Origin: Isoetes taiwanensis
Lineage: Eukaryota; Streptophyta; Lycopodiopsida; Isoetales; Isoetaceae
Length of the DNA stretch: 64,000 nt
NCBI GenBank assembly: GCA_021234155.1
Contig: JAJEKV010000030.1
Span: 16,916,003-16,980,002, forward strand
Direction: 5' to 3'
Shown here: positions 35,490-55,407 of the stretch, in pieces
Position numbering within the stretch: the stretch's first letter is position 1
Layout: each line of letters begins with the position of its first letter
The notes under the pieces: model-generated
Databases searched by the model: none
Seen by the model: only the letters and a program-made list of their open reading frames with translations
What the model was told of the DNA's origin: nothing
Made by a program: the position numbers and the translations under genes

Positions 35490-35930
35490 CTCTTATAGCA
35501 CACCAAAACACATAAGACTAAACACATATCATTCTTGTTTATTATTAGAGCAACAAAATTCACATAACATTTTGAAACAAAATAAATGACAAGCAGTAGT
35601 AGCATCTCGTGTCCACTATGGAAGAGCACACTCTTCGTCAAGGGTATTCTGGCCATTGAATTCACCAATACCATGTAGCTGAACCGAAGCATCATCAATA
35701 TCCTTCCAGAATTTCACAACTGTTTTCATTGACGGTCGCATATTAGCATCTTCATCAATACACAAAAGTGCAATTTTTGTTACTCTTCTACTTTGCTCCT
35801 CAGTATAGCCTTCGTGCATTAGCAATCTATGATCAATTAGAGTGCCATTTTCCATATCCTTCATAACCCACTCTAGAAAGTGTAGACAAGTGCCATCTAA
35901 TGCAATTGTTGCAATGCTTTTATAAGGCAA
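35490..35930 (-). pseudogene. Receptor kinase 3' fragment, copy 1
   Basis: Minus-strand frame (35616-35925) reads IATIALDGTCLHFLEWVMKD ... LLMHEGYTEEQSRRVTKIAL then LCIDEDANMRPSMKTVV. This is the C-lobe end of the kinase (conserved C-x-D-x3-R-P-S-M motif) plus tail. Below 35616 is the 3' untranslated part shared by all copies. Upstream kinase sequence is missing; the neighbour is an IPMI fragment. Homologous to 42124-42570. Confidence 0.85.
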
Positions 35931-35956
35931 CAAATCTTTGCTTTTTCTTGCAGAGT

Positions 35957-36720
35957 AATCAGATAATTCCAGGCGAGTATCTTCCTTGACGCCTTGAAAC
36001 CCTGATGATTATGAGAAACTTGGAAGCTTTGCCCATGGCTGAATTGGCTTCTCAGTACCCTCATTTTATGAAAACAGGCAAGGCGAAGGCCGGATATAAT
36101 GTGATAATTGGAGGAGGCAATTTTGGCTGTGGTTCTCTAGAGAACATGCACCTGCTGCTCTTGGTGTCGATGGAGTAGAGGCTGTAGTTGCAAAATCATA
36201 TGCCAGGATTTTTTTTTTCAGAAACTTTGTCGCAACTGGAGATGAGATTAATGTGGATAATAAGATAAGATAAGATAAGATGAATTTTTACGTCCACGGG
36301 AACCCAACGGGTTATGGGACGGCACATGCAAGGGCAACAGCCCATCTAAAACCTGGGGACTAGGCCCCATCACCAAACACAATAACCAAATATTAAAAGG
36401 CTAATGCTAGTGGTAAATTTATGCTTCTAAAATTATCTAGAGATAGCCAGTCCAAGGATTGGAAGGCCATTGATCCAGAATAATTGCTGCGCCTCCCCTG
36501 TACACTGCCCATTTCTTTTGCAGGCGAGCTGCCCTCACCTTGCAGAGCTCCTCCTTACGATAATGAGAGAAAATAGTTGTTTAATCATTCTACTGGGAAA
36601 CAATATGCTCTGAAGCCTATTGGTGATGCTGGTCCTATGATCGAGGCCGACAATATTTTTGCTTATGCAAGACAGACAGGCATGATTGCAGCTAGTTGTT
36701 TGTTCTTAGAATCTTCATAT
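35957..36720 (+). pseudogene. Isopropylmalate dehydratase small subunit fragment, copy 1
   Basis: Begins after an intron-like acceptor (TTTTTCTTGCAG, ending 35963). Blocks across frames: NQIIPGEYL, PDDYEKLGS, IIGGGNFGCGS (the NFGCGSSREHAP signature of LeuD/IPMI small subunits), EAVVAKSYARI, FRNFVATGDE, and after an insertion ALKPIGDAGPMIEADNIFAY. IPMI acts in leucine and, in some plants, glucosinolate synthesis in plastids. Multiple frameshifts and a 300-bp insertion make it dead. The retained acceptor argues for DNA-level duplication rather than retrotransposition. Confidence 0.82.
36262..36562 (-). mobile_element. LINE-like 3' fragment in the IPMI remnant
   Basis: About 300 bp absent from the sister copy (compare 41575-41590). 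On minus it ends in a (CTTAT)n tail (36262-36282), as some plant LINE/SINE insertions do, and the interior resembles a LINE tail (TGGGCTGTTGCCCTTGCATG). Short flanking GATA may be a target duplication. Confidence 0.55.
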
Positions 36721-36874: not shown

Positions 36875-38301
36875 TCTTATATTATAATGTTATACCGTAA
36901 GTGCGTAGTGCATCGAGCCCTAATTTGAATGGCCGAGATCATCTGGATGCATCCGAAGGCCTAGATTTATTGCACGACTTACCAACACTGTGATTGGTCA
37001 TGCTTCGATCTCTTAAGGGGAAAGGGTAAATGAAAAGGGGGAAAAGAAAAAGGGAAGTGGAAAGAGAGAATGTGAAGGGCAAAAAGGCATGGGGAAAAGG
37101 GAAAAGGGAAAAGGGTAAAAGGAAAAGGGAAAAAGGAAAAAAGAGAAAAGAAAAGGAAAAAGAGAAAGGGTGGTGAAAGGAAAAAGGCATGGGGAAAAGG
37201 GAAAAGGGTAACAGGCATGGGGAAAAGGAAAAAGGGAAAAAGGAAAAGGTAAAAAAGAAAAAAGGGGAAAAAAGGAAAAGGGAAGTGGAAAGAGAAAATG
37301 GGTATAGGAAATAAGAGAATAAAACAAATGTGCAAAAGGCATGGAAAAGGGGAAAAGGAAAAGTAAAGGGAAAGAGTGCACAGGAAAAGGATCAGCAAAG
37401 CCATCAAGAAAAGGAAACGGGAAAAAAAGGAAAGGGAAAGGGAAGCAGGGGAGTGATGGAGGGGAGGGAAAGGGAAAAAGGACATGAGGAAAGGAAAAGA
37501 GAAAAGAAAAAAGAAGGGTTGAAAGAAGGGAAAATTGCACGGGAAGAGGGAAAGGGTGGGAAAAGGAAGCACGGGAAAAATAGAAAGAAGAAAAGGGTGG
37601 GAAAAAAGGGCATGTGAAAAGGGAAATAGAAAAGAAAAAAAAATGGAAAAGGGGGGAAAGAGAGAGAGGCACGGGAAAAAGGAAATGAGGAAAATGGAAA
37701 AGGGGAAGAGAAAAAGGGAACATGGAAAAGGGAAAGAGGGAAAGGACGAGGAGATGGAAAAGGGATGGAGAAAAGAAAAATGGAAGGGAAAAGGGCACAC
37801 AAAAAAAGGAGGAAAAGAGTGGGAAATGGAGGAAAAGAGAAGGGAAAATAGGCATGGAAAAAGACAAAAGAGTAAAAGGTTGAGAAAAAGGGAAGACATG
37901 GAAAAAGGATGGGGAAAAAAGAAGGCATAAAAAAAGAGAAAGGGGAAGGGAAAATGGCAAAGAAAAAAGAGAAGAGGGAAAAGGTGGAGAAAGAAGCAAA
38001 AGGGAAGGGAAAAGGGCAAAGAAAAAAGAGAAGAGGGAAAAGGTGGAGAAAGGAGCAAAAGGGAAGGGAAAAAGGTTATCGGGAACAGGGAAGGGGGAAG
38101 GAAAGGGATGGGAAAACAAGGAAACATGTGAGAAAGACGAGAAAAAAAAGGAAAAGAAAAAAAAAAGTAGAGAAAATAAGAAAAAATGAAATGCGGGATA
38201 GAGCAAAAGGGAAAGGGAAAGGAATATGGCTTTTCTCACTGCATCCCAAAGCGTTTACAGGCTCTCAACTTATGCCCAGCAATGCTGGGCACCATTACTA
38301 G
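36875..38301 (+). mobile_element. Non-autonomous Helitron with purine-rich core
   Basis: Starts TCTTATATTATAATGTTATACC at 36875 and ends hairpin GCCCAGC-AAT-GCTGGGC (38274-38290), ACCATTA, CTAG at 38301. Inserted between A (36874) and T (38302). The related segment at 41871-41885 reads GGATTTATGCTTTAT without the element, an intact empty site that fixes both ends to the base. Same family as 66-3890. No coding capacity. Confidence 0.95.
37010..38225. repeat. 1.2-kb purine-only-like tract
   Basis: GGGAAAAGG-type sequence with almost no pyrimidines on plus. Local tandem copies include the AAAAGAGAAGAGGGAAAAGG segment repeated near 37970 and 38030. Its long open frames on minus (Phe/Pro/Ser/Leu-rich) are composition artefacts. 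Confidence 0.95.
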
Positions 38302-38531
38302 TGCTTTATATAATGGTTTATATGTTGTTCATGAACTTGCGAACGTTTTTTGTACCTTTACTTTTTTCTTCAAAAAAAAAAAAGTAAAGAAAAAGGCAAC
38401 ATCTCACACCAAAACACATAGGACTACACATATCATTCACACATAAAGCTCCTCTATTATTAGAGCATCAAAATTCACATAACATTTTGAAACAAAATAA
38501 ATGACAAGCAGTAGTATCATTTTCGTATCCA

Positions 38532-39230
38532 CTATAGAAGGGCAGACTCTTCATCAACGGTATTCTGGACATTGACCTGACCAACACCATGTAGTTGGGT
38601 CAAAGCATCATCAATATCCTCCAACAATTTCACAACTGTTTTCATTGACGGTCGCATATTAGCATCTTCATCAATACATAAAAGTGCAATTTCTGTTACT
38701 CTTCTACTTTGCTCTTCAGTATAGCCTTCGTGCATTAGCAACCTATGATCGATTAGAGTGCCATTTTCCATACTCATCATAACCCACTCTAAAAAGTGTA
38801 GACAGTCACCATCTAATGCAATTGTTGCAGTGCTTTTACGACCACTTAGAGTCTCTAGCATCACTATCCCAAAGCTGTAAACATCATGCTTTTCTGATAC
38901 AATTCCATTTACCCATTCTGGAGGCAAATAGCCAATAGTTCCCATCATTCTTGTGAGGAGAATGGAAGTTTGGTCACCAGGAAGCAACCTACAGAGTCCA
39001 AAATCTGAGACCTTGGCATTAAATGAGTCATCCAATAATATATTCTGAGGCTTCACATCCAAATGAAGTCTTTTGGGTTCACATTCTTCATGCAAATATG
39101 CGAGTCCTTGTGCCGTCCCTAAAAGAATTCTCATTCTGTTTCTCCAATCGAGAATAAAATCATCACTAAAGATCCATTTCTCAAGGGAGCCATTTGGCAT
39201 GAATTCATAAACTACAGACGAATCCGCTCA
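38532..39230 (-). pseudogene. Receptor kinase C-terminal half, copy 2
   Basis: 222-codon open frame from MPNGSLEKWIFSDDFILDW through catalytic loop HLDVKPQNILLD, intact DFG (VSDFGLCRLLPGD), APE-equivalent PPEW and the tail ending VDEESALL. Upstream of 39215 the homology to the full copy stops after YEFMPNG (about 39225), so the ATP-binding lobe and ectodomain are absent. Almost identical to 42124-42780 but without its frameshifts, so it shows what the longer gene should encode. Confidence 0.88.
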
Positions 39231-40819: not shown

Positions 40820-41245
40820 AGCATCTCTTATAGCACACCAAAACACATAGGACTAAACACATATCATTCACACATAAAGCTCTTGTTTATTATTAGAGCA
40901 ACCAAATTCACATAACATTTCTAAACAAAATAAATGACAAGCAGTAGTAGCATCTCGTGTCCACTATAGAAGAGCACACTCTTCGTCAAGGGTATTCTGG
41001 CCATTGATCTCACCAACACCATGTAGCTGGGCCGAAGCATCATCAATATCCTCCAAGACTTTCACAACTGTTTTCGTTGACGGTCGCATATTAGCATCTT
41101 CATCAATACACAAAAGTGCAATTTTTGTTACTCTTCTACTTTGCTCCTCAGTATAGCCTTCGTGCATTAGCAATCTATGATCAATTAGAGTGCCCTTTTC
41201 CATATCCTTCATAACCCACTCTAGAAAGTGTAGACAAGCTTTTAC
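40820..41245 (-). pseudogene. Receptor kinase 3' fragment, copy 3
   Basis: Frame 40964-41212 repeats the C-lobe tail (LCIDEDANMRPSTKTVVKVL), preceded on plus by the shared 3' untranslated block. As in copy 1, it adjoins an IPMI remnant at about 41250, so copies 1 and 3 are one duplicated unit. Confidence 0.85.
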
Positions 41246-41254
41246 AAGGCAACA

Positions 41255-41705
41255 AATCTTTGCTTTTTCTTGCAGAGGAGTAAGATAATTCTGGGCGAGT
41301 ATCTTCCTTGATGCCTTGAAATCCTGATGATTATGAGAAACTTAGAAGCTTTGCCCATGGCAGAATTGGCTTCTCAGTACCCTCGTTTTATGAAAACAGG
41401 TAAGGCCAAGGCTGGATATAATATGATAATTGGAGGAGGCAATTTTGGCTGTAATTCTCTAGAGAATATGCACATGTTGCTCTTGGTGTAGCTGGAGTAG
41501 AGGCTGTAGTTGCAACATCATATGCCATGATTTTTTTTAGAAACTTTGTCGCAACTGGAGATGAGGTTAATGTGGATATAGAGAGAAATTTGTTGTTTAA
41601 TCATTCTATTAGGAAACAATATGCTCTGAAGCCTATTGGTCCTATGATCGAGGCCGACAATATTTTTGCTTATGCAAGACAGACAGAATGATTCCAGCTA
41701 TTTGT
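41255..41705 (+). pseudogene. Isopropylmalate dehydratase small subunit fragment, copy 2
   Basis: Same order as 35957-36720 (intron acceptor, DDYEKL, IIGGGNFGC, EAVVATSYAMIFF, FRNFVATGDEV, ALKPIGPMIEADNIFAYARQ) but without the LINE-like insertion. Frameshifts remain and the GDAG motif is shortened to G, so it is also dead. Closely matches copy 1. Confidence 0.82.
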
Positions 41706-42123: not shown

Positions 42124-44816
42124 CTACAGAAGGGCAGACTCTTCATCAACAGTATTCTGGACATTGACCTGACCAACACCGTGTAGTTGGGTCAAAGCAT
42201 CATCAATATCCTCCAACAATTTCACAACTGTTTTCATTGACGGTCGCATATTAGCATCTTCATCAATACATAAAAGTGCAATTTCTGTTACTCTTCTACT
42301 TTGCTCTTCAGTATAGCCTTCGTGCATTAGCAACCTATGATCGATTAGAGTGCCATTTTCCATACTCATCATAACCCACTCTAAAAAGTGTAGACAGTCA
42401 CCATCTAATGCAATTGTTGCAGTGCTTTTACGACCACTTAGAGTCTCTAGCATCACTATCCCAAAGCTGTAAACATCATGCTTTTCTGATACAATTCCAT
42501 TTACCCATTCTGGAGGCAAATACCCAATAGTTCCCATCATTCTTGTGAGGGAGAATGGAAGTTTGGTCACCGTGAAGCAACCTCTGAGTCCAAAATCGAG
42601 ACCTTGGCATTAAATGAGTCATCCAATAATATATTCTGAGGCTTCACATCCAAATGAAGTCTTTTGGGTTCACATTCTTCATGCAAATATGCGAGTCCTT
42701 GTGCCGTCCCTAAAAGAATTCTCATTCTGTTTCTCCAATCGAGAATAAAATCATCACTAAAGATCCATTTCTCAAGGGAGCCATTTGGCATGAATTCATA
42801 AACAAGAAGTTTATGGGGACCTTCTGCACAGAATCCCAAAAGTTCAACAAGATGTACATGATGTATTTTCCCCAAAGTTTCTATTTCTGACTTAAATTCT
42901 TGCAAGCCCTGACTGTTGCTTTCCAGCTTTTTTACTGCAACTTTCTTTCCATCAAGGAGGGTTCCCTCGTATACTCCACCAAACCCACCTTTCCCTACCA
43001 TCTTGCTAAAGTTATTTGTCACCACTTCCAATTCTGGATAGCTGAAACTAGCCAAAGACATTGTTATGTCGGAAGGCTCACTCCGGCGCCTCCCTAGAAG
43101 AAGCCAAAGAAGTATTCTTTTGATAGTCAATTGTGTAGACTTCTTGAAAGATTGCATTGTTGCTAGAATAGAATTGATGCAATGGATGTACAACATAGAT
43201 TTGATGTAATGGATGTAAAACGCCCAACTAGAGACAAGTATGAAAATAAAAGAGACCAGAAAGCGATTTATCATGATAATAAGAGAGAGAATGGTGAGAG
43301 TAAAATCATAGGGCTGATGATACCATATGGGGTTATAATAAAATAAGACAGCAGCACAGTAAAGCACAATGAAAATGTTGAGCAAGACAAGGAGGAAAAT
43401 TCGTGTTTTGGGATTACAACATCTACGTCCAGGGAGCCTTATTACGAGTAGGCATATTGTGTTGACAACAGGCCAAGGGTAGAAGGAGAAGGATAAGGAG
43501 AAGGATACTCTCCGTGTGTGGTATGCGACATCATCTGAAGCGAGGGAAAGTTGAGGAAACAAATAAAGTACAATTGCTATAAATGAGCAAGAAATTGGCA
43601 GCATGTGTAGCAGAATCAATGTACCAATAAGCTTTGGGCTAGTGGCCATCCATTTAAGTAGGAATATAGTGCTACCTTGCAAAATGGTTAAATATATAGC
43701 AAAAGGAGACTTAAATAGTTCTTGGTCTTGCAGCGAGCTCTTAATTAGTCTGTAAAGGACTATAGAGGTTGCAGAGATGGAACAGCAGATGATGAAAGCA
43801 AGTAGAATAGATCTGAGGCGGAACAGAAGATGATGAAAGCAAGTAGAATAGATCTGAGTTAGAATAGATGTGAAGATCCATAAAAGTTGAAGGCAAAACA
43901 TGAGCAATACCAGGATAATAACTATGTAAGCCAACCAGGTTTTGCTTTCTCCAGCGCAAGCAGAAAAGGATATTCTAACATAATCATCATCAGAAGAACA
44001 ACAAGCATGATCTAGAACCCACGTACCATTGTGAAGTCCGTAGAGCATGAAGGATGCATCCTCAGATAATCTGATGAACCTATAAGCGGGGAAAGCTTGA
44101 ATGCCTTCCCTATAAGGCTTGCCTTGAATATAAATATGACCTGTGTGTAAACCACTGCTGTTCCAAATAAACAAAACACTCAAAGGATCATATGGATCAC
44201 TCTTGTAACCAAGCTGAGCCTTTACTCCTCCAGTCCGGATTTGGCATACCCTTAGAGTGGGACTTGCATTCACTGTAAAATTACCATTTTGGAACATAGC
44301 TGAAGCATTTCCTGCTGTAAGCTTTGTGAAATTCTGCCCCACAACCGCAACATCTGTGGGATAATCCATGCTGTTCCATACCACTCTCTGATTGGCATCG
44401 TAGAATAGCAAAGTTCCTTCTGATTTCAGTTCCCAACTGCTCACGTTATAGCCAGCCGACCAAACCTCTTTGCTGCCTCCATCTCTCAGAATAATTCTTC
44501 CACTGCTAGAATCCAGCTCAAGCCTAGATTTCTCAGATACTATCTGCCCTGCACTCCAGATCATCTGTGGTTCTGCATTGTGAATTGTCATAAAAATCCC
44601 CAATTCATATTTCTCTTTTAATCTTGGGACAGATCGAAATGAAAGTGCAAACTTTTCACTGGCCAAAACTACGAATCTGTTCACTAGAACTGGATAAACC
44701 GTATTTGTACCATAATTCCATGCTAAATTAGTGCGAAGGATGGTGTAATCGATAGAAAGAGGATGAGCTTCTATTATACAACAACAGAAGAAAAGGAAGA
44801 AGAAGATCCTCTCCAT
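42124..44816 (-). pseudogene. G-type lectin receptor-like kinase with seven predicted membrane spans
   Basis: One frame runs 44816 to 42567; the rest of the kinase continues in another frame at 42570-42124. The start chosen is M at 44816, because MERIFFFLFFCCCIIEAHP is a good signal peptide; an ATG 25 codons upstream adds nothing. Numbering from that upstream ATG: bulb-lectin domain about 70-190 (VWSAG, LLFYDANQRVVWNSMDYPTD), N-glycosylation sites, then hydrophobic spans near 318-340, 359-381, 396-414, 421-446, 463-485, 497-518 and 529-558. The kinase follows, from G-loop GKGGFG (633) with Lys654, Glu669 and catalytic loop HLDVKPQN (Asp748; non-RD). It most resembles the SD2-5 type of plant kinases. 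Near 42560-42595 three indels destroy the DFG region relative to 38532-39230. No introns. Confidence 0.8.
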
Positions 44817-45325: not shown

Positions 45326-46619
45326 TTCCCAAGGGTATCTTCGAGATAAGTAGTTTCCCTTACGTAATGAACAAATGGTTAATATTACGAACGAGACAGA
45401 GTGAGAAGGATTGATTACGACTATGGCGGCTACAGTGGAAATCCTTTGTATATTGTTTTAAAACGCCTTTTGTCCTTGATGAACGAGCTCTGTGTAGCCA
45501 AAAAGCTTGGTAAATAAATATCCGGCCCTCATTCTTTCTTTGTTTTGAGAAAACCCCCTGTTACCCAATGATTTTCTAGATCGAATATGAAAGGAGCTTT
45601 CAACCAAACATCATCCTGGACCTCATAGCAAATATCAAGTGGTATGTTGGACCAATTCCACTTCAGACTAATTCCGACCTAATCTTACTGCAACATCACC
45701 TGTCTGTTTTGTCTAAAAGTGGTTTATTGCTTTTGTCATTGTTGGTGACAATCAATGCAACATCACCTGTATGTTTTGTTCTAAAAGTGGTTTATTGTCA
45801 TTGTTGGTGACAATCAATGCAACAAGACCCTGTCTGTTTTGTCTAAAAGTGCTTTTGTCATTGTTCGTGACATTCAATCAAACTGGAGGTTATAGTTGAC
45901 CCAATCTCGTTATGGCTACATGCGGCAAAGTCCTAGGCGCTTCACAAAATTTCCGGTTCAAAAAATAATTTCCTTGTTCATATAAAATGTCGCAGGATAC
46001 ATGGTCGATCGAAAAAGAGGAGTATTAAGGGTTTTTTCCATTCAATTTCATATAGATTTCATATAGGTAGTATTTTTTTCGTTTAAAAAAATAAGTTATA
46101 GGGTATTCTTTTTTTATATGGTTGGTTAGTATGTTTTTATTTTATTTTAATGGTTCTCTAATTATACTTATGTATATTTCCACGTAATAAACTGCCAGGG
46201 CCAGGCCAAAGGAATAAAATTCCAAATTTTCAGTTCATTCCTTTCTTTATCCAACAAGGATCTGATAATAGAAGTTTGGCACTGAGAGCGGGACGGTGAG
46301 GCAGAGATTCTTTTCTACCCTTTCTTTCTACTTTCGATGCCAGATTTGATTGTTGCGGGCCTGCGATTATCATATCAAAAATGTTTCAGATGATCAAATT
46401 AGTACTAACATGCATAACCATTTAGAAGGTCTTTCGAACCTGTGCTTATTGGCGACATCCAAGCAGTCACGTAATGTATCAAGAAACTACAATCTCAAAA
46501 AAAGGACATCATCTCTTATAACACACCAAAACACATAGGACTAAACACATATCATTCACACATAAAGCTCCTGTTTATTATCTATCTATCTATTATTAGA
46601 GCATCGAAACAAAATAAAT

Positions 46620-46745
46620 GACAAGCAGTAGTAGCATTTTCGTGTCCACTATAGAAGGGTAGACTCTTCATCAACGGTATTCTAGACATTGACCTCACCA
46701 ACACCATGTAGTTCGGTCAAAACATCATCAATATCCTCCAACAAT
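46620..46745 (-). pseudogene. Receptor kinase tail remnant, copy 5
   Basis: About 125 bp matching the last codons and stop of the kinase (compare 42110-42235), ending exactly where a CACTA terminus starts (46746). Confidence 0.8.
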
Positions 46746-47128
46746 CACTACAACCCCAACATTTGGTCCACAGCTAAAAACAACAGTAAAAACACAATAC
46801 GGGTTGTTTTTTGAAGATTTGAGAAAAACCTACACGTAGTTATACGGAGGTGTGGTTTTTCAAGGATATGCTGTAGTTTTTCTTGAGGAGCCATAGCTTT
46901 TTTTCTAAAGAATGTGTGGTTTCTTAAGGAGGCGTACTTTCTATTGATATCTGAATGTAAAATACATGCGCTGTTGGCTATACTATTCTTTACATAACAG
47001 GCCAGGCCTTTTAAGGTAGTGGTTTTTTGAGGTGTGGATTTTCATGGTTTTCTAATACTCCATGTATGACCAAGTTGTCCACATACCATTATTGCCAAAA
47101 AATGACAGCATACAAGAGCTATATGCAT
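46746..47128. mobile_element. CACTA-type terminal segment
   Basis: Begins CACTACAACCCCAACATTTG at the point where kinase homology stops. It contains repeated GGTTTTTTGA/GTGTGG words typical of CACTA subterminal regions. The opposite end was not found, and another CACTA end is inserted at 47129. Confidence 0.6.
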
Positions 47129-47149
47129 CACTACTATAGAACGGGCTAT

Positions 47150-47640
47150 TAGCGACGTCGTTAGCACCGTCACATTGACGTATTAGAGACGTCAGACATC
47201 GCATGAGGACGTCTTGCAAATGTTGCACGGACGTTGCAAATGACGTTGCCTAGGATTCGTCGCAGGGCGACGTCACGTCGCAGGTGAAACATCATGTTTG
47301 CGACGTCCGTGACGTCGCTGTGACGTTGTTAATACGTCGCTAGGACGTTCTAATCTCGTTCTATTTACGTTACCCATGAAACGTTGTTTTCGACGTGCGT
47401 GCAACATATTTGCAACGGCCAAAACGTCCTTCACACGTCGTCGTGACGTCTTTAAGACGTTGTTAATACGTCGCTAGGACGTTCTAATCTCGTTCTATTT
47501 ACGTTACCCATGAAACGTTGTTTTCGACGTGCGTGCAACATATTTGCAACGTCCAGAACGTCCTTCACACATTGTCGTAACGTCTTTAAGACGTTGTTCT
47601 TTACGTTACAAACACGTTGTTTTGACGTTTCAAATGGCAT
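47150..47640. repeat. CACTA subterminal repeats (GACGT words)
   Basis: Dozens of ACGT-core words (GACGTC, ACGTTG, ACGTCG), including a 100-bp internal duplication (47315-47400 and 47455-47545). CACTA transposases bind such clustered subterminal words. Confidence 0.85.
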
Positions 47641-47907
47641 TTTCATTGTGACATCATATTTAGCATGTTTTTGTTGCGACGTGTAACAATTTTAATAAAA
47701 AAAAAATGTAAGAAGCTTGAAAGTCATTTTCTAAAGAATATTGAATAAGAAGAAACAAAAATAGAATAGAATAGAGTATATATTTATGTGTCATGAAACA
47801 AGAAGAGTAAGAAAAAATCGTGTCAAAAAGAAGTCACTATGTGATGCCTATATCTAATCATCTGGAACATCACACTCACCATCAGAACTATAATAGCGAT
47901 CATTCTC

Positions 47908-49708
<1,801 letters not shown>

Positions 49709-50220
49709 TCTAAAATTTGTAAAATATGTTACAACACAAATAAATAGCTTAAAAGAATATCATAAAAAACCTGGAGTATGGTCCTCCGATCGATCACTCC
49801 TTACTCTCCTAACTGGAGCATCGCTTTGAGGTAGTGCTTGATTTCTTTGAGGTCTTGCGTGGCCCCCTAAATTTATATTCCACAATTTTTAAGTATAACA
49901 AAAAATTATATTCCAAAATTATTTTTAATTATAAATTGCTAAATGTATTTTATTCTCCATGGTCAAGGGCATTCTCATAGTGTCAAACTTCTATATATGA
50001 TCTTTCTAGAACTTACCTAGATGCATGGGGTATGACGGGATGCATGGGGTATGAAAGTGACAATATCCTTGAATCAAGAACATATATCCTTCACAAATGC
50101 ATACACTACAATTGTTCATAAACACATACACTTCAACTAAAAGCATAGACTCCTATAAGAAAAAAAGCATCCGTGCAAATATTATTATCTTCTCCATCTA
50201 TCTTCTATCTCCGTCAAAAA

Positions 50221-52261
50221 TCAACTATCATTTCCATCAGTGTCATAAGCTGATTCCGAGTTATCTCCTGCCAATCCATCAGTGTCTTCTACAGGCTCGT
50301 CCTCGGGCAAAGTTGCATGTTCAAAAGTATCAGAGGGTTCCTCATCTACTCTCATGCTTTCTTCCACTTTGGGCTCCTTGAAAAAATACGACGAGACCTC
50401 GGTGAAGATTGTATGACAAACCACCAATCACTATCACTCCGATCAGGCATGAAGAAAACACCGCAAAATAATTGTCATTTAGATTGCTATTTAGAAGCGA
50501 AATCCATAGCACTTGAACCAACCTGCTCACAATTCTCTAAAAAACAATCGCTTTGAGCCACAATATAATTTTGTGGAGTTAATAGAAAAGAAACCACTGA
50601 TGTCATTTCTTACAGTTGGTCTTGGGCCTCTAAGTTGCAGATCAAACCAATCGACATCAAACACAATGGTCTTAAAGTCACCACCGACATCAACTTCCAT
50701 GATGGTTTTCAATGTGCCAACCCACCAACCTCAGGCTTGAGCTCGACACGATCTGCTACACTTGATTGGAACTCCATCTCAAACGATGTCATAATTCCAC
50801 AATCAAACGTCTTTCTATTCTTGTCACCATTGTGTACTCGATAGTGGGTACCATTCCACCACATAGAGGAATAAGATTGGAACTGCACATAACAAGAAAA
50901 TAAGTAACTAGCTCCCATTGGTAAATGATATTTAGAGATGTAACTATATTTATACATACCTGCTTCATAACCCCTTGTGCATATGACCTTTCAACTGAGG
51001 TAACCAATTCACCTTCATTAATCGCGTCATGCATTGCATTGCATACCCAATCTTGTGTCATCCTATCTGGAAAGCATTCATATCCAACTGGAAATGGACC
51101 TCGTCGATTTAATTGTCTCCACGATTTTCTTTTTTGCTCTCTTTCTTTCTTTTCATCCTCATATCGGGCAAGCCATTTCTCCATCTCCTTGGCATTGTAA
51201 AGCAAAAAATTATTTATTTTAGCTTGAGCTTCTGGAGTAAATACCTTCTGGATGCCATTACCCTCAGTCACGATACCCACATTCTTCTCCTCTTCTTCAT
51301 CTTTCCATAGTCATGGAGCTCCTGGATGCAAGTCAATGATGAACTCTGTCATATAAAATAAAGATTCTCGTGCTAACCACCCTTCAGCCATGCTGCCCTC
51401 TGGACGTGCCCTCTGATGCACCATATCTTTTAAGACCTTCATAAACCTTTCCACAAAGAACATCCACCTGGCATGGACGGTCCCTGCAAGTTCAATCTCT
51501 TCCACAAGATGCACTAAAAGATGAGGCTGGATGTCCAGAAAGCTTGTAGGAAATTCTTTCTCTAACAAACAACATGCCTCAACCATCTTCACCTTCATCT
51601 CGTCTATCTCATGCCTTGGGATCTGCTTTTGTGAAATCCATCTACAAAATTTTTAGCAATAAATTTTAGAAATGGTTCATAGAATCACATAAGTAAAAAA
51701 ATATATGCAATTGCATTTACCTTATAACCTTCGATAGTGTACATATCGCTTCTAAAGGGCCTGTACTTAAAGCACCCCTCAAAGACAATGGCATAAAGAA
51801 CTACATATTTAACATAGTAAAAGGAAATATCAAACATAATGCTTGTCATACATCATAAATAAAGAAATGCTTACATGAAGAAGCTTGTGCCAATCGTGAG
51901 ACTTGAGACCTGTAAGCTCCCCAGTGGATGAAAATGCTCCATGTAAGGAGTGCATGAAACCAGTTGGGGTGCGAAGGATTTTGAGATCTTCAAGGACTCC
52001 CCTTTGATCAACCTTACTAAGAACCCAAGCCGCATTTGGAGCATAGCCTTCATTATCGAGCCATGCTTTCTTCTTTGTATTTGTCAACTTGAGATCCATC
52101 CTTGCACTTGCCGTGTCTTTCTCACCAAATAAATGCCTCCATAAAGAGTTTCCTACATTCTTGAAAATGTGCATCGGATCAAGAAGGTGTTGAATCAAAA
52201 GGCCAGTCCAATACGGGAGTTTATAGAAAACTGATTTCCTTCTCATCCCATGAATCAACAC
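50221..52261 (-). pseudogene. CACTA transposase Tnp2, 3' part
   Basis: In order on minus: Transposase_21 region (KSVFYKLPYWTGLLIQHLLD then PMHIFKNV, and later TGLKSHDWHKLLH; 51830-52261), DUF4218 (CCLLEKEFPTSFLDIQPHLL then VHLVEEIELAGTVHARWMFF and RPEGSMAEGW; 51311-51598), a charged segment (50960-51280), a DUF4216-like part (VFDVDWFDLQ; LFCGVFFMPDRSDSDWWFVI near 50430-50700) and an acidic end (50221). The 5' half is missing. Introns and shifts separate the frames. It cuts and joins CACTA termini in intact elements. Confidence 0.85.
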
Positions 52262-52268
52262 CTACTGC

Positions 52269-52345
52269 AGCCATGCCATGCCATCAACACCTACTGCCAT
52301 GCCATACCATCAACACCTACTGCCATGCCATGCTATCAACACCTA
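52269..52345. repeat. CCATGCCAT / CAACACCTACTG minisatellite
   Basis: Short unit ATCAACACCTACTGCCATGCC repeated three to four times. A related shorter array is at 44985-45015, at the start of the left duplicate. Confidence 0.85.
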
Positions 52346-53899
52346 CTGCAGCGACTGAGATGCAACAACAGGGCCTTTATTATTCTGCCATCAACACCTC
52401 CTGCAACGGTAAGCCCTGTTCTTTATTGTTCCTCCTGTTCTATCTAGCCAGGGTTAGAAAAAAAAGTTCTTAAAACTAGAAATTTGCCTGTATTTGTTCT
52501 TAGTTCTTAGATTTATGTAAAAAAACTACAGTTAGAGAAAATCCACGAGGGAATTTCCCGAGGCTGCCCCGCCAGATGAGGCGGCGCCTAGGCGGCGAAG
52601 CCGCAGCCCCAACGAGTCTGGCGGGCCGCCGAGAAAATATTCCCAAGGGTATCTTCGAGATAAGTAGTTTCCTATTACGAACGAGACAGAGTGAGAAGGA
52701 TTGATTACGACTATGGCGGCTACGGTGGAAATCCTTGTATATTGTTTTAAAACGACTTTTGTCCTTGATGAACGAGCTCTGTGTAGCCAAAAAGCTTGGT
52801 AAATAAATATCCGGCCCTCATTCTTTCTTTGTTTTGAGAAAACCCCCTGTTACCCCCTGTTACCCAATGATTTTCTAGATCGAATATGAAAGGAGCTTTC
52901 AACCAAACATCATTCTGGACCTCATAGCAAATATCAAGTGGTATGTTGGACCAATTCCACTTCAGACTAATTCCGACCTAATCTTACTCCAACATCACCT
53001 GTCTGTTTTGTCTAAAAGTGGTTTATTGCTTTTGTCATTGTTGGTGACAATCAATGCAACATCACCTGTATGTTTTGTTCTAAAAGTGGTTTATTGTCAT
53101 TGTTGGTGACAATCAATGCAACAAGACCCTGTCTGTTTTGTCTAAAAGTGCTTTTGTCATTGTTCGTGACATTCAATCAAACTGGAGTTTAATAGTTGAC
53201 CCAATCTCGTTATGGCTACATGCGGCAAAGTCCTAGGCGCTTCACAAAATTTCCGGTTCAAAAAATAATTTCCTTGTTCATATAAAATGTCGCAGGATAC
53301 ATGGTCGATCGAAAAAGAGGAGTATTAAGGGTTTTTCCCATTCAATTTCATATAGATTTCATATAGGTAGTATTTTTTTCGTTTGAAAAAATAAGTTATA
53401 GGGTATTCTTTTTTTATATGTTTGGTTAGTATGTTTTTATTTTATTTTAATGGTTCTCTAATTATACTTATGTATATTTCCACGTAATAAACCGCCAGGG
53501 CCAGGCCAAAGGAATAAAATTCCAAATTTTCAGTTCATTCCTTTCTTTATCCAACAAGGATCTGATAATAGAAGTTTGGCAATCGAGCGGGATCGGAGGC
53601 GTAGATTCTTTTCTACCCTTTCTTTCTACTTTCGATGCCGATTTGATTGTTAAGGCCCAAGGATTATCATATCAAAAATGTTTCAGATGATCAAATTAGT
53701 ACTAACATGCATAACCATTTAGAAGGTCTTTCGAACCTGTGGTTATTGGCGACATCCAAGCAGTCACGTAATGTATCAAGAAACTACAATCTCAAAAAAA
53801 GGACATCATCTCTTATAACACACCAAAACACATAGGACTAAACACATATCATTCACACATAAAGCTCATGTTTATTATTAGAGTATCGAAACAAAATAA

Positions 53900-54027
53900 A
53901 TGACAAGCAGTAGTAGCATTTTCGTGTCCACTATAGAAGGGCAAACTCTTCATCAACGGTATTCTGGACATTGACCTCACCAACGCCATGTAGTTCGGTC
54001 AAAACATCATCAATATCCTCCAACAAT
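53900..54027 (-). pseudogene. Receptor kinase tail remnant, copy 6
   Basis: Duplicate of 46620-46745, again ending at a CACTACAACCCC terminus (54028). Confidence 0.8.
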
Positions 54028-54414
54028 CACTACAACCCCAACATTTGCTCCACAGCTAAAAACAACAGTAAAAACACAATACGGGTTGTTTTTTGAAGAT
54101 TTGAGAAAAACCTACACGTAGTTATACGGAGGTGTGGTTTTTCAAGGATATGCTGTAGTTTTTCTTGAGGAGCCATAGCTTTTTTTCTAAAGAATGTGTG
54201 GTTTCTTAAGGAGGCGTACTTTCTATTGATATCTGAATGTAAAATACATGCGTTATTGGCTATACTATTCTTTACATAACAGGCCAGGCCTTTTAAGGTA
54301 GTGGTTTTTTGAGGTGTGGATTTTCATGGTTTTCTAAAACTCCATGTATGACCAAGTTGTCCACATGCCATTATTGCCAGCCAAAAAATGACAGCATACA
54401 AGAGCTATATGCAT

Positions 54415-55184
54415 CACTACTACAGAACGGGCTATTAGCGACGTCATTAGCAACGTCACATTGACGTATTAGAGACGTCAGACGTCGCATGAGGACGTCT
54501 TGCAAATGTTGCACGGACGTTGCAAATGACGTCGCCTAGATTCGCCGCGCAGGCGACGCCACGCCGCAGTGAAACGTCATGTTTGGCGGCGCCGGCAGCG
54601 GACGTTGTTAATACGCCGCTAGGACGCTCTAATCTCGCTCTATTTACGCTACCCATGAAACGTTGTTTTCGACGCGGCGCGTAAAACATATTTGCAACGC
54701 CAAAACGCCCTTCACATCGCCGACGGACGCCTTTAAGACGTTGTTAATACGTCGCTAGGACGTTCTAATCTCGTTCTATTTACGTTACCCATGAAACGTT
54801 GTTTTCGACGTGCGTGCAACATATTTGCAACGTCCAGAACGTCCTTCACACGTCTTTAAGACGTTGTTCTTTATGTTACAAACACGTTGTTTTGACGTTT
54901 CAAATGGCATTTTCATTGTGACATCGTATTTAACATGTTTTTGTTGCGACGTGTAACAATTTTAATAAAAAAAAATGTAAGAAGCTTGAAAGTTATTTTC
55001 TAAAGAATATTGAATAATAAGAAACAAAAATAGAATAGAATAGAGTATATATTTATGTGTCATGAAACAAGAAGAGTAAGAAAAAATCGTGTCAAAAAGA
55101 AGTCACTATGTGATGCCTATATCTAATCATCTGGAACATCACACTCACCATCAGAACTATCATAGCGATCATTCTCTGTTGATG

Positions 55185-55272
<88 letters not shown>

Positions 55273-55288
55273 TGTACGATTGTCATTG
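54415..55288 (-). mobile_element. Second CACTA terminus, truncated
   Basis: CACTACTACAGAACGGGC at 54415, subterminal repeats, then the poly-Asp C-terminus of the second gene (55123-55288, intact end DSSDGECDVPDD). It is cut by the LINE insertion. Confidence 0.82.
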
Positions 55289-55407
55289 TTTTTTTTTGAA
55301 GGATGTGAGGCTCTTTTTATTGACAAGAACAAAGGCACAATACACAATGCACAGATAGGAATAAAACCCTAGTGGATAGGCTGACCCAACTAGGCAAAAA
55401 CACCCGT

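Follow-up and report, generated by a model that had tools for sequence, protein, structure and literature searches.

A probably decayed copy from a family of lectin receptor kinases with a predicted seven-helix membrane domain in the lycophyte Isoetes taiwanensis

Descriptions of plant receptor kinases generally give them a single membrane span, and a reading frame in the genome of the lycophyte Isoetes taiwanensis raises the question of whether one plant chain can carry a lectin ectodomain, seven membrane helices and a cytoplasmic kinase. The frame lies in a stretch of 64,000 nucleotides (hereafter the window; contig JAJEKV010000030.1, positions 16,916,003 to 16,980,002), for which an original prediction from the letters alone had offered two explanations, a fusion of a lectin, a seven-transmembrane (7TM) domain and a kinase, or an intron-like segment that happens to be open. 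From sequence comparison, the window copy probably belongs, as a decayed member, to an Isoetes receptor kinase family (probability roughly 0.8) composed of a signal peptide, a short G-type lectin ectodomain, a 7TM domain and an SD2-5-like non-RD kinase.

From an ATG at 44816, a single frame of 749 codons plus stop runs to 42567 on the minus strand, with 32 stops in the plus-strand reading of the same region. It encodes a signal peptide and a B-lectin ectodomain, followed by seven hydrophobic segments and the beginning of an SD2-5-like kinase (SD2-5 being the label that we take to fit both the kinase and the lectin kinase type). Of the single lectin-7TM-kinase frame originally proposed, the frame itself stands; it lies on the minus strand, and its kinase is cut before the DFG by a frameshift. 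The signal peptide (residues 1-17, 44766-44816, minus strand) is a hydrophobic N-terminus with a Kyte-Doolittle (KD) hydropathy of 2.09 at residues 4-22, and its boundary was placed at Ala17, identical in the alignment of all 18 family members described below, and not by a cleavage-site prediction. The ectodomain (residues 25-286, 43959-44744, minus strand) includes a B_lectin match at residues 94-164 (window 44325-44537; Pfam PF01453, E 1.7e-5, 25.7 bits, below the gathering score of 32.4), and seven N-glycosylation sequons occur in residues 1-286. No EGF/PAN-type motif was found in the window ectodomain, and CGxYGxC is present in 0/18 family members. Following the membrane domain (residues 287-575, 43092-43958, minus strand), the kinase N-lobe and catalytic loop (residues 603-740, 42597-43010, minus strand) contain GKGGFGGV, VAVK and HLD and end before DFG, with a match to Pfam PF07714 (E 5e-24) covering only profile positions 3-144 of 258; the nearest PDB sequences to this part are the SYMRK and BRI1 kinases (E ~1e-36).

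The window protein was used to search the I. taiwanensis assembly (1,658,258,908 bases, 1110 contigs), which was published as 1658.30 Mb in 204 scaffolds and 909 contigs with an N50 of 17.40 Mb, in a paper whose main text contains neither 'lectin' nor 'receptor-like' (PMC8566536). At least 68 places matched when 60 of 2362 candidates were scored, making the family size a lower bound. The first search yielded eight loci (L001-L008), after which 20, 10, 8, 5 and 2 further stretches were inspected, and 18 frames, the window's included, were aligned that had a plausible signal-peptide start and reached at least the kinase catalytic loop. Partial or startless frames in L007, L008, L016, L020, L026, L028 and L050-L052 and fragmentary copies in L029-L032 were kept out of the alignment. 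The window protein has at least 17 long single-frame paralogs in this genome, with identities of 33-86%, and all 18 aligned members read through the membrane segment in one frame without an intron. Conserved homologs without an intron had been set beforehand as a test of the fusion, and they were found within this one genome, 17 besides the window copy. B_lectin was matched in 18/18 members at E values up to 1 (best E, 2.2e-11), with the window copy and L017 below the gathering score and L010 and L022 above it, and the Pfam kinase model was matched in 18/18 at the same limit. The frame continues to kinase subdomain XI in 15 members and stops early in the window copy, L009 and the second frame of L014. 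The P-loop and HLD are present in 18/18, DFG in 17/18 and the catalytic lysine, judged by alignment column, in 17/18; the count of VAVK strings (18/18) was not used, as one of the strings, in the L009 ectodomain, is a chance match. With HLD instead of HRD, the members are by motif non-RD kinases, a type common among plant immune receptors.

By hydropathy, the membrane domain of the window copy divides into TM1 (residues 294-316, 43869-43937), TM2 (336-355, 43752-43811), TM3 (369-390, 43647-43712; the lowest KD in this member, 1.36), TM4 (398-418, 43563-43625), TM5 (437-459, 43440-43508), TM6 (471-493, 43338-43406) and TM7 (509-533, 43218-43292), all on the minus strand. A KD mean of ≥1.5 over 19 residues gave six membrane segments after the signal peptide, a cut-off of 1.2 gave seven (298-316, 336-354, 372-390, 399-417, 441-459, 473-491, 509-527), and the Goldman-Engelman-Steitz (GES) scale gave eight. 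Scanned by KD from ectodomain to kinase, 12/18 members have seven segments and 6/18 have eight, and the weighted family hydropathy profile shows seven distinct maxima, with a minor eighth in the juxtamembrane region that precedes the kinase. The seven segments first proposed are thus recovered in the window copy at the 1.2 cut-off, with seven or eight in every member; since the counts vary with the scale, exactly seven is the best reading and not a measurement. The proposed charge pattern also held, with basic inner loops (three predicted; K+R 127, D+E 11, summed over 18 members) and non-basic outer loops (three; K+R 57, D+E 45). Each ectodomain carries five to ten N-glycosylation sequons, and the signal peptide, these sequons and the loop charges together favour a predicted topology with the lectin outside and the kinase in the cytoplasm. 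The arrangement of a 7TM-kinase fusion, with seven helices, an N-terminus outside and a kinase inside, is in this way indicated by hydropathy and charge pattern, and intact members are most likely cell-surface receptor kinases with a lectin-type ectodomain outside and a cytoplasmic kinase.

Conservation and selection were compared among the parts of the protein. The best-kept part of the 7TM domain is a signature at TM5 and the third inner loop (NTICLLVIRLPGR, 43425-43463, minus strand), in which N452, I454, L456, L461 and P462 are identical in 18/18. Based on 12 representative rows of the 18, mean pairwise identity is 43% for TM5, 46% for the third inner loop, 24-31% for the other six helices, 11-30% for the outer loops and 75% for the kinase. 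The ratio of nonsynonymous to synonymous substitution rates (dN/dS) was estimated for 14 pairs (7TM values 0.15 to 1.93) and bootstrapped for nine. In the four most divergent of the nine (L010/L013, L010/L011, L021/L022 and L022/L025; 7TM dS 0.94-1.44), which are not all independent as L010 and L022 are each used twice, the 7TM dN/dS is 0.42 (0.27-0.60), 0.47 (0.30-0.65), 0.30 (0.17-0.44) and 0.28 (0.19-0.39), and in L025/L027 it is 0.58 (0.39-0.86). In the same nine pairs the kinase gave 0.05-0.18 and the ectodomain 0.22-0.96. By comparison of the three parts in these pairs, the membrane domain is constrained but fast-evolving, in that the divergent pairs indicate long-term constraint at the protein level and the rate is close to that of the lectin and far above that of the kinase. 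The 18 uninterrupted frames, the seven or eight segments in each and the purifying selection in divergent pairs support the fusion put forward in the original prediction.

Several observations weigh against this reading. Besides the overlap between pairs, three closer pairs have 7TM dN/dS values of 0.65-0.82 with intervals reaching 1, among them 0.75 for the window copy/L009 and 0.82 for L015/L018, and L017/L018 has a value of 1.93 (1.01-4.71) at a dS of 0.05, with a kinase value of 0.18. On the GES scale, the segments counted from residue 200 on range from 6 to 10 among the members, with only 6 in L017 and L019. Two to eight sequons are also located past the ectodomain across the 18 members, and L011 has 7 after it compared to 6 within, L012 8 compared to 8. 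Both AlphaFold2 models, built from single sequences, are poor (mean predicted local distance difference test score 39.8 for the whole protein and 56.2 for the membrane part), and the fold of the membrane domain therefore stays predicted from hydropathy. QxDxNxVxY, the canonical mannose-binding motif, which is not required in receptor kinases, occurs in 0/18 members; this makes sugar binding uncertain, and the ligand may therefore not be mannose. The nearest relatives of the window copy (L009, L029, L030 and L031) carry breaks at differing positions. As a separate observation, the L017/L018 value above 1 could reflect diversifying selection on the membrane domain.

For intact members, a mechanism may be proposed in which the ectodomain, possibly together with the outer loops, senses a cell-wall or microbial ligand and the signal passes through the helix bundle to the kinase; the surface most likely to couple the two would be the conserved NTICL..RLPGR element at TM5 and the third inner loop. 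Transmission through a helix bundle would then take the place of dimerisation via a single helix, the usual mode in plant receptor kinases. That the helices transmit a signal rather than merely anchor the protein is favoured because polarity, segment number and one inner element have been kept. Were the 7TM domain only an elaborate anchor, with the family working by ligand-induced clustering like single-span lectin kinases and the extra helices carrying no signal, its low conservation (six helices and the outer loops relative to the kinase) and the dN/dS near 1 in some close pairs would be accounted for, but the presence of at least seven segments in 18/18 members, the polarity of the loops summed over them, the helix-loop element identical at five positions in all of them and the dN/dS below 1 in divergent pairs speak against it, and we consider an anchor somewhat unlikely.

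The origin of the family was explored using 14 other kinase loci from the same genome as controls. In a kinase tree of 32 rows (18 7TM members and the 14 other loci), the 7TM members lie on one side of a branch (Shimodaira-Hasegawa-like approximate likelihood ratio test, 99), apart from the controls; this tree was built quickly, several of its controls are near-copies of one another, and L035 and L013 were flagged for long branches. Eleven of the 14 controls are readable before the kinase (L041, L043 and L044 have no readable membrane stretch), each with one strong span and the CGxYG motif of the EGF/PAN region, and two of the 11 have an extra weak segment. PAN and/or SLG (S-locus) Pfam matches were found in 3/3 single-span controls scanned, that of L034 below the cut-offs; the 18 7TM members gave neither match at E values up to 1. 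The family 7TM profile had no match (independent E < 0.1) in 5/5 single-span controls scanned. The next-nearest places in the genome search are single-span kinases, and 5/5 of those scanned have a lectin match. Given the kinase clade, the single-span controls with PAN/SLG and the absence of the 7TM profile from controls, the 7TM architecture arose, most simply, once within the G-type lectin kinases of this lineage, perhaps when the membrane span of a G-type lectin receptor kinase was replaced or received an insertion and its ectodomain lost the SLG/EGF/PAN portion.

Where the 7TM domain itself came from was considered by searching for relatives. For the 18 members there was no Pfam or NCBIfam match above noise, no PDB sequence was matched by single sequence or by profile, the domain was seen in no other complete fusion, and no relatives were confirmed on viral and prokaryotic contigs. 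A match to DUF3675 (PF12428) on TM1-TM2 of the window copy was rejected as noise (E between 0.035 and 0.25, varying with the stretch used; 1/18 members). Three TM queries against the plant's own genome listed 43, 32 and 56 places, consisting of family members and fragments, and seven extra places were inspected. L047, L048, L049 and L053 are 7TM pieces (fragments) without a lectin or kinase match, L050 combines the lectin with TM1-3, L051 has lectin, 7TM and kinase, and L052 part of the 7TM and the kinase. No free-standing 7TM parent was found by these three queries, with many short hits left unexamined and a distant relative possible. That a lectin kinase captured a domain diverged from some known 7TM family (such as a GPCR-like, MLO or RGS1-type one; GPCR, G-protein-coupled receptor) would fit the seven helices and the N-out/C-in topology that such families share, but given the lack of any match above noise and of a free-standing parent among the hits inspected it is on the whole doubtful. 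In a further observation, L047, L048 and L049 are dispersed 7TM fragments sharing a downstream end, as if borne by a mobile element, and one of the three lies ~460 bp from a transposase-like frame, which we take to be of Harbinger type.

Compared to known systems, the Isoetes proteins resemble G-type (bulb) lectin receptor kinases of the SD2-5 type in their signal peptide, B_lectin and SD2-5-like kinase, and both a B_lectin ectodomain and a lectin-type kinase of the plant receptor-like kinase (RLK)/Pelle group are present. They differ in having seven or eight KD segments in 18/18 members instead of a single span, and in lacking an SLG or PAN match, domains that are usual but not universal in that class. 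SLG, EGF, PAN and transmembrane regions are accessory domains in the Arabidopsis and tomato classification of G-type lectin receptor kinases (PMC5889549). Fusions termed GPCR-TKL/K and GPCR-TK (TKL, tyrosine-kinase-like; TK, tyrosine kinase) in choanoflagellates and sponges likewise place a 7TM domain and then a cytoplasmic kinase on one chain; according to that report, such fusions likely evolved repeatedly and none had been functionally characterised to the knowledge of its authors (PMC12716839). Those fusions are non-plant and have 7TM domains of their own, whereas the Isoetes proteins join a plant RLK-type kinase and a lectin ectodomain to an orphan 7TM domain, and, set apart by these descriptions, the Isoetes fusion is likely another origin, independent of the choanoflagellate and sponge fusions. 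The GPCR-TKL bigrams of oomycetes and amoebozoans are also similar in combining a 7TM domain with a tyrosine-kinase-like kinase, but some have DEP domains and a lectin ectodomain is not described in the accessible part of the report, whose authors found no evidence for them outside both groups (PMC5784254). A receptor survey that included Isoetes sinensis counted lectin RLKs as a class, and the word 'transmembrane' occurs 0 times in its main text (PMC12512272). The literature covered yielded no description of a plant receptor kinase with seven spans, subscription papers and preprints being largely outside that coverage.

The family is best filed with the G-type lectin receptor kinases, and by architecture it would work like a 7TM-kinase fusion. 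A lycophyte family of lectin, orphan 7TM and RLK kinase would add a plant case to the repeated evolution of 7TM-kinase fusions described by the choanoflagellate and sponge study (PMC12716839), and its single-span sisters with related kinases in the same genome would make the control of a kinase by a helix bundle readily testable. The family may even represent a plant-evolved class of seven-helix receptor kinases, in which an orphan 7TM bundle, flanked by a rapidly evolving lectin ectodomain and a highly conserved non-RD kinase, joins ligand sensing through its outer loops and pocket and switches the kinase allosterically, independent of the oomycete, amoeba, choanoflagellate and sponge fusions, a suggestion made tentatively and at somewhat less than even odds.

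The window copy itself is broken. Its kinase frame terminates at KVSILDSEVASR, before DFG, and relative to the paralog at 38532-39227 the frame break (42549-42598, minus strand) consists of three single-base indels, two losses and one gain (net -1), with the first one-base loss directly preceding DFG. The remainder of the kinase from DFG to the C-terminus and stop (42124-42597, minus strand), aligned to 38532-39212, is out of frame with the upstream open reading frame, so that the frameshift before DFG leaves this copy with an incomplete kinase that lacks an in-frame DFG and C-lobe. The first loss is common to the L029 copy (C1035, ~17.125 Mb, match at 5972-5773) on the same contig ~167 kb away, and is therefore probably inherited and not a sequencing error. 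An assembly error, with the gene intact in the plant, would find some support in the concentration of three indels and several substitutions within ~50 bp, when the rest of the shared kinase is near-identical to 38532-39212, and in an assembly built on Nanopore, Illumina and Bionano data (PMC8566536), but the shared first loss and the breaks at other places in neighbouring copies make this improbable. Because the window copy and its nearest copies are broken, partial 3' copies are present and 15 more distant members have complete frames, the reading frames point to a decaying cluster of a presumably living family, in which the window copy is probably a decayed member.

Far the weakest alternative concerns the membrane segment. 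Within residues 290-570, T is enriched at codon position 2, with 0/5000 block shuffles reaching the observed excess and 0/5000 remaining stop-free; such a codon-position bias marks a sequence that encodes hydrophobic residues and does not mark a T-rich intron. The segment is T-rich, but the second explanation of the original prediction, here taken as an intron (retained or open) or an exitron in an otherwise normal single-span lectin kinase, is contradicted by this bias, by frames open in 18 aligned members down to 33% identity, by dN/dS intervals below 1 in divergent pairs and by the absence of such a segment from single-span controls (11/11 readable; 5/5 by profile), and is very improbable.

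Two minor features of the membrane domain were noted. A 41-bp tandem repeat (two copies, 93%) lies in the TM1-TM2 loop (43774-43855, minus strand). The window gene is 36 nt longer there than its sister L009, and the extra loop stretch also occurs in one copy each in L029 and L030; a compensated duplication of 57 nt (41+16) was discarded as an explanation of the repeat, since L009 lacks the 36 nt at that place. An internal duplication of the helix bundle (TM1-3 compared to TM5-7) was unsupported (probability 0.2%).

Around the gene, all on the minus strand, are a truncated paralog with the second half of the kinase and DFG intact (38329-39212, 93% identical DNA), two truncated paralogs with the kinase 3' end and 3' flank (40834-41236, 90%; 35499-35922, 87%) and two copies of the 3' end and flank (46520-46745 and 53817-54027, both 85%) beside which the match to the gene body is not continued. 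An Rfam scan of 34-56 kb gave no match at the gathering threshold. Between 38532-39212 and 42124-42803 the coding part is near-identical and the 3' flank clearly more diverged, with a 50-bp cluster of differences at DFG, and the disparity between coding part and flank suggests gene conversion or an assembly effect. Two kinase 3'-end fragments (35616-36008 and 40964-41341, minus strand) have a similar foreign join upstream, each followed by a pseudogene-like piece (~36000-36720 and 41330-41690, plus strand), as though a composite unit had itself been duplicated; from their motifs, we take these pieces to be a 3-isopropylmalate dehydratase small subunit pseudogene. A long low-complexity array at 36979-38239 (minus strand) contains two overlapping frames of ~400 codons rich in F, S, P and L, which are not evidence of a gene. 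The stretches 46520-53109 and 53817-55360 both have the gene 3' flank, a similar downstream frame, CAT/ATG trinucleotide arrays and transposon debris, the debris in this region being presumably EnSpm-like at 51.3-52.3 kb, LINE-like at 55.4-58.3 kb and Helitron-like at 62.7-64.0 kb.

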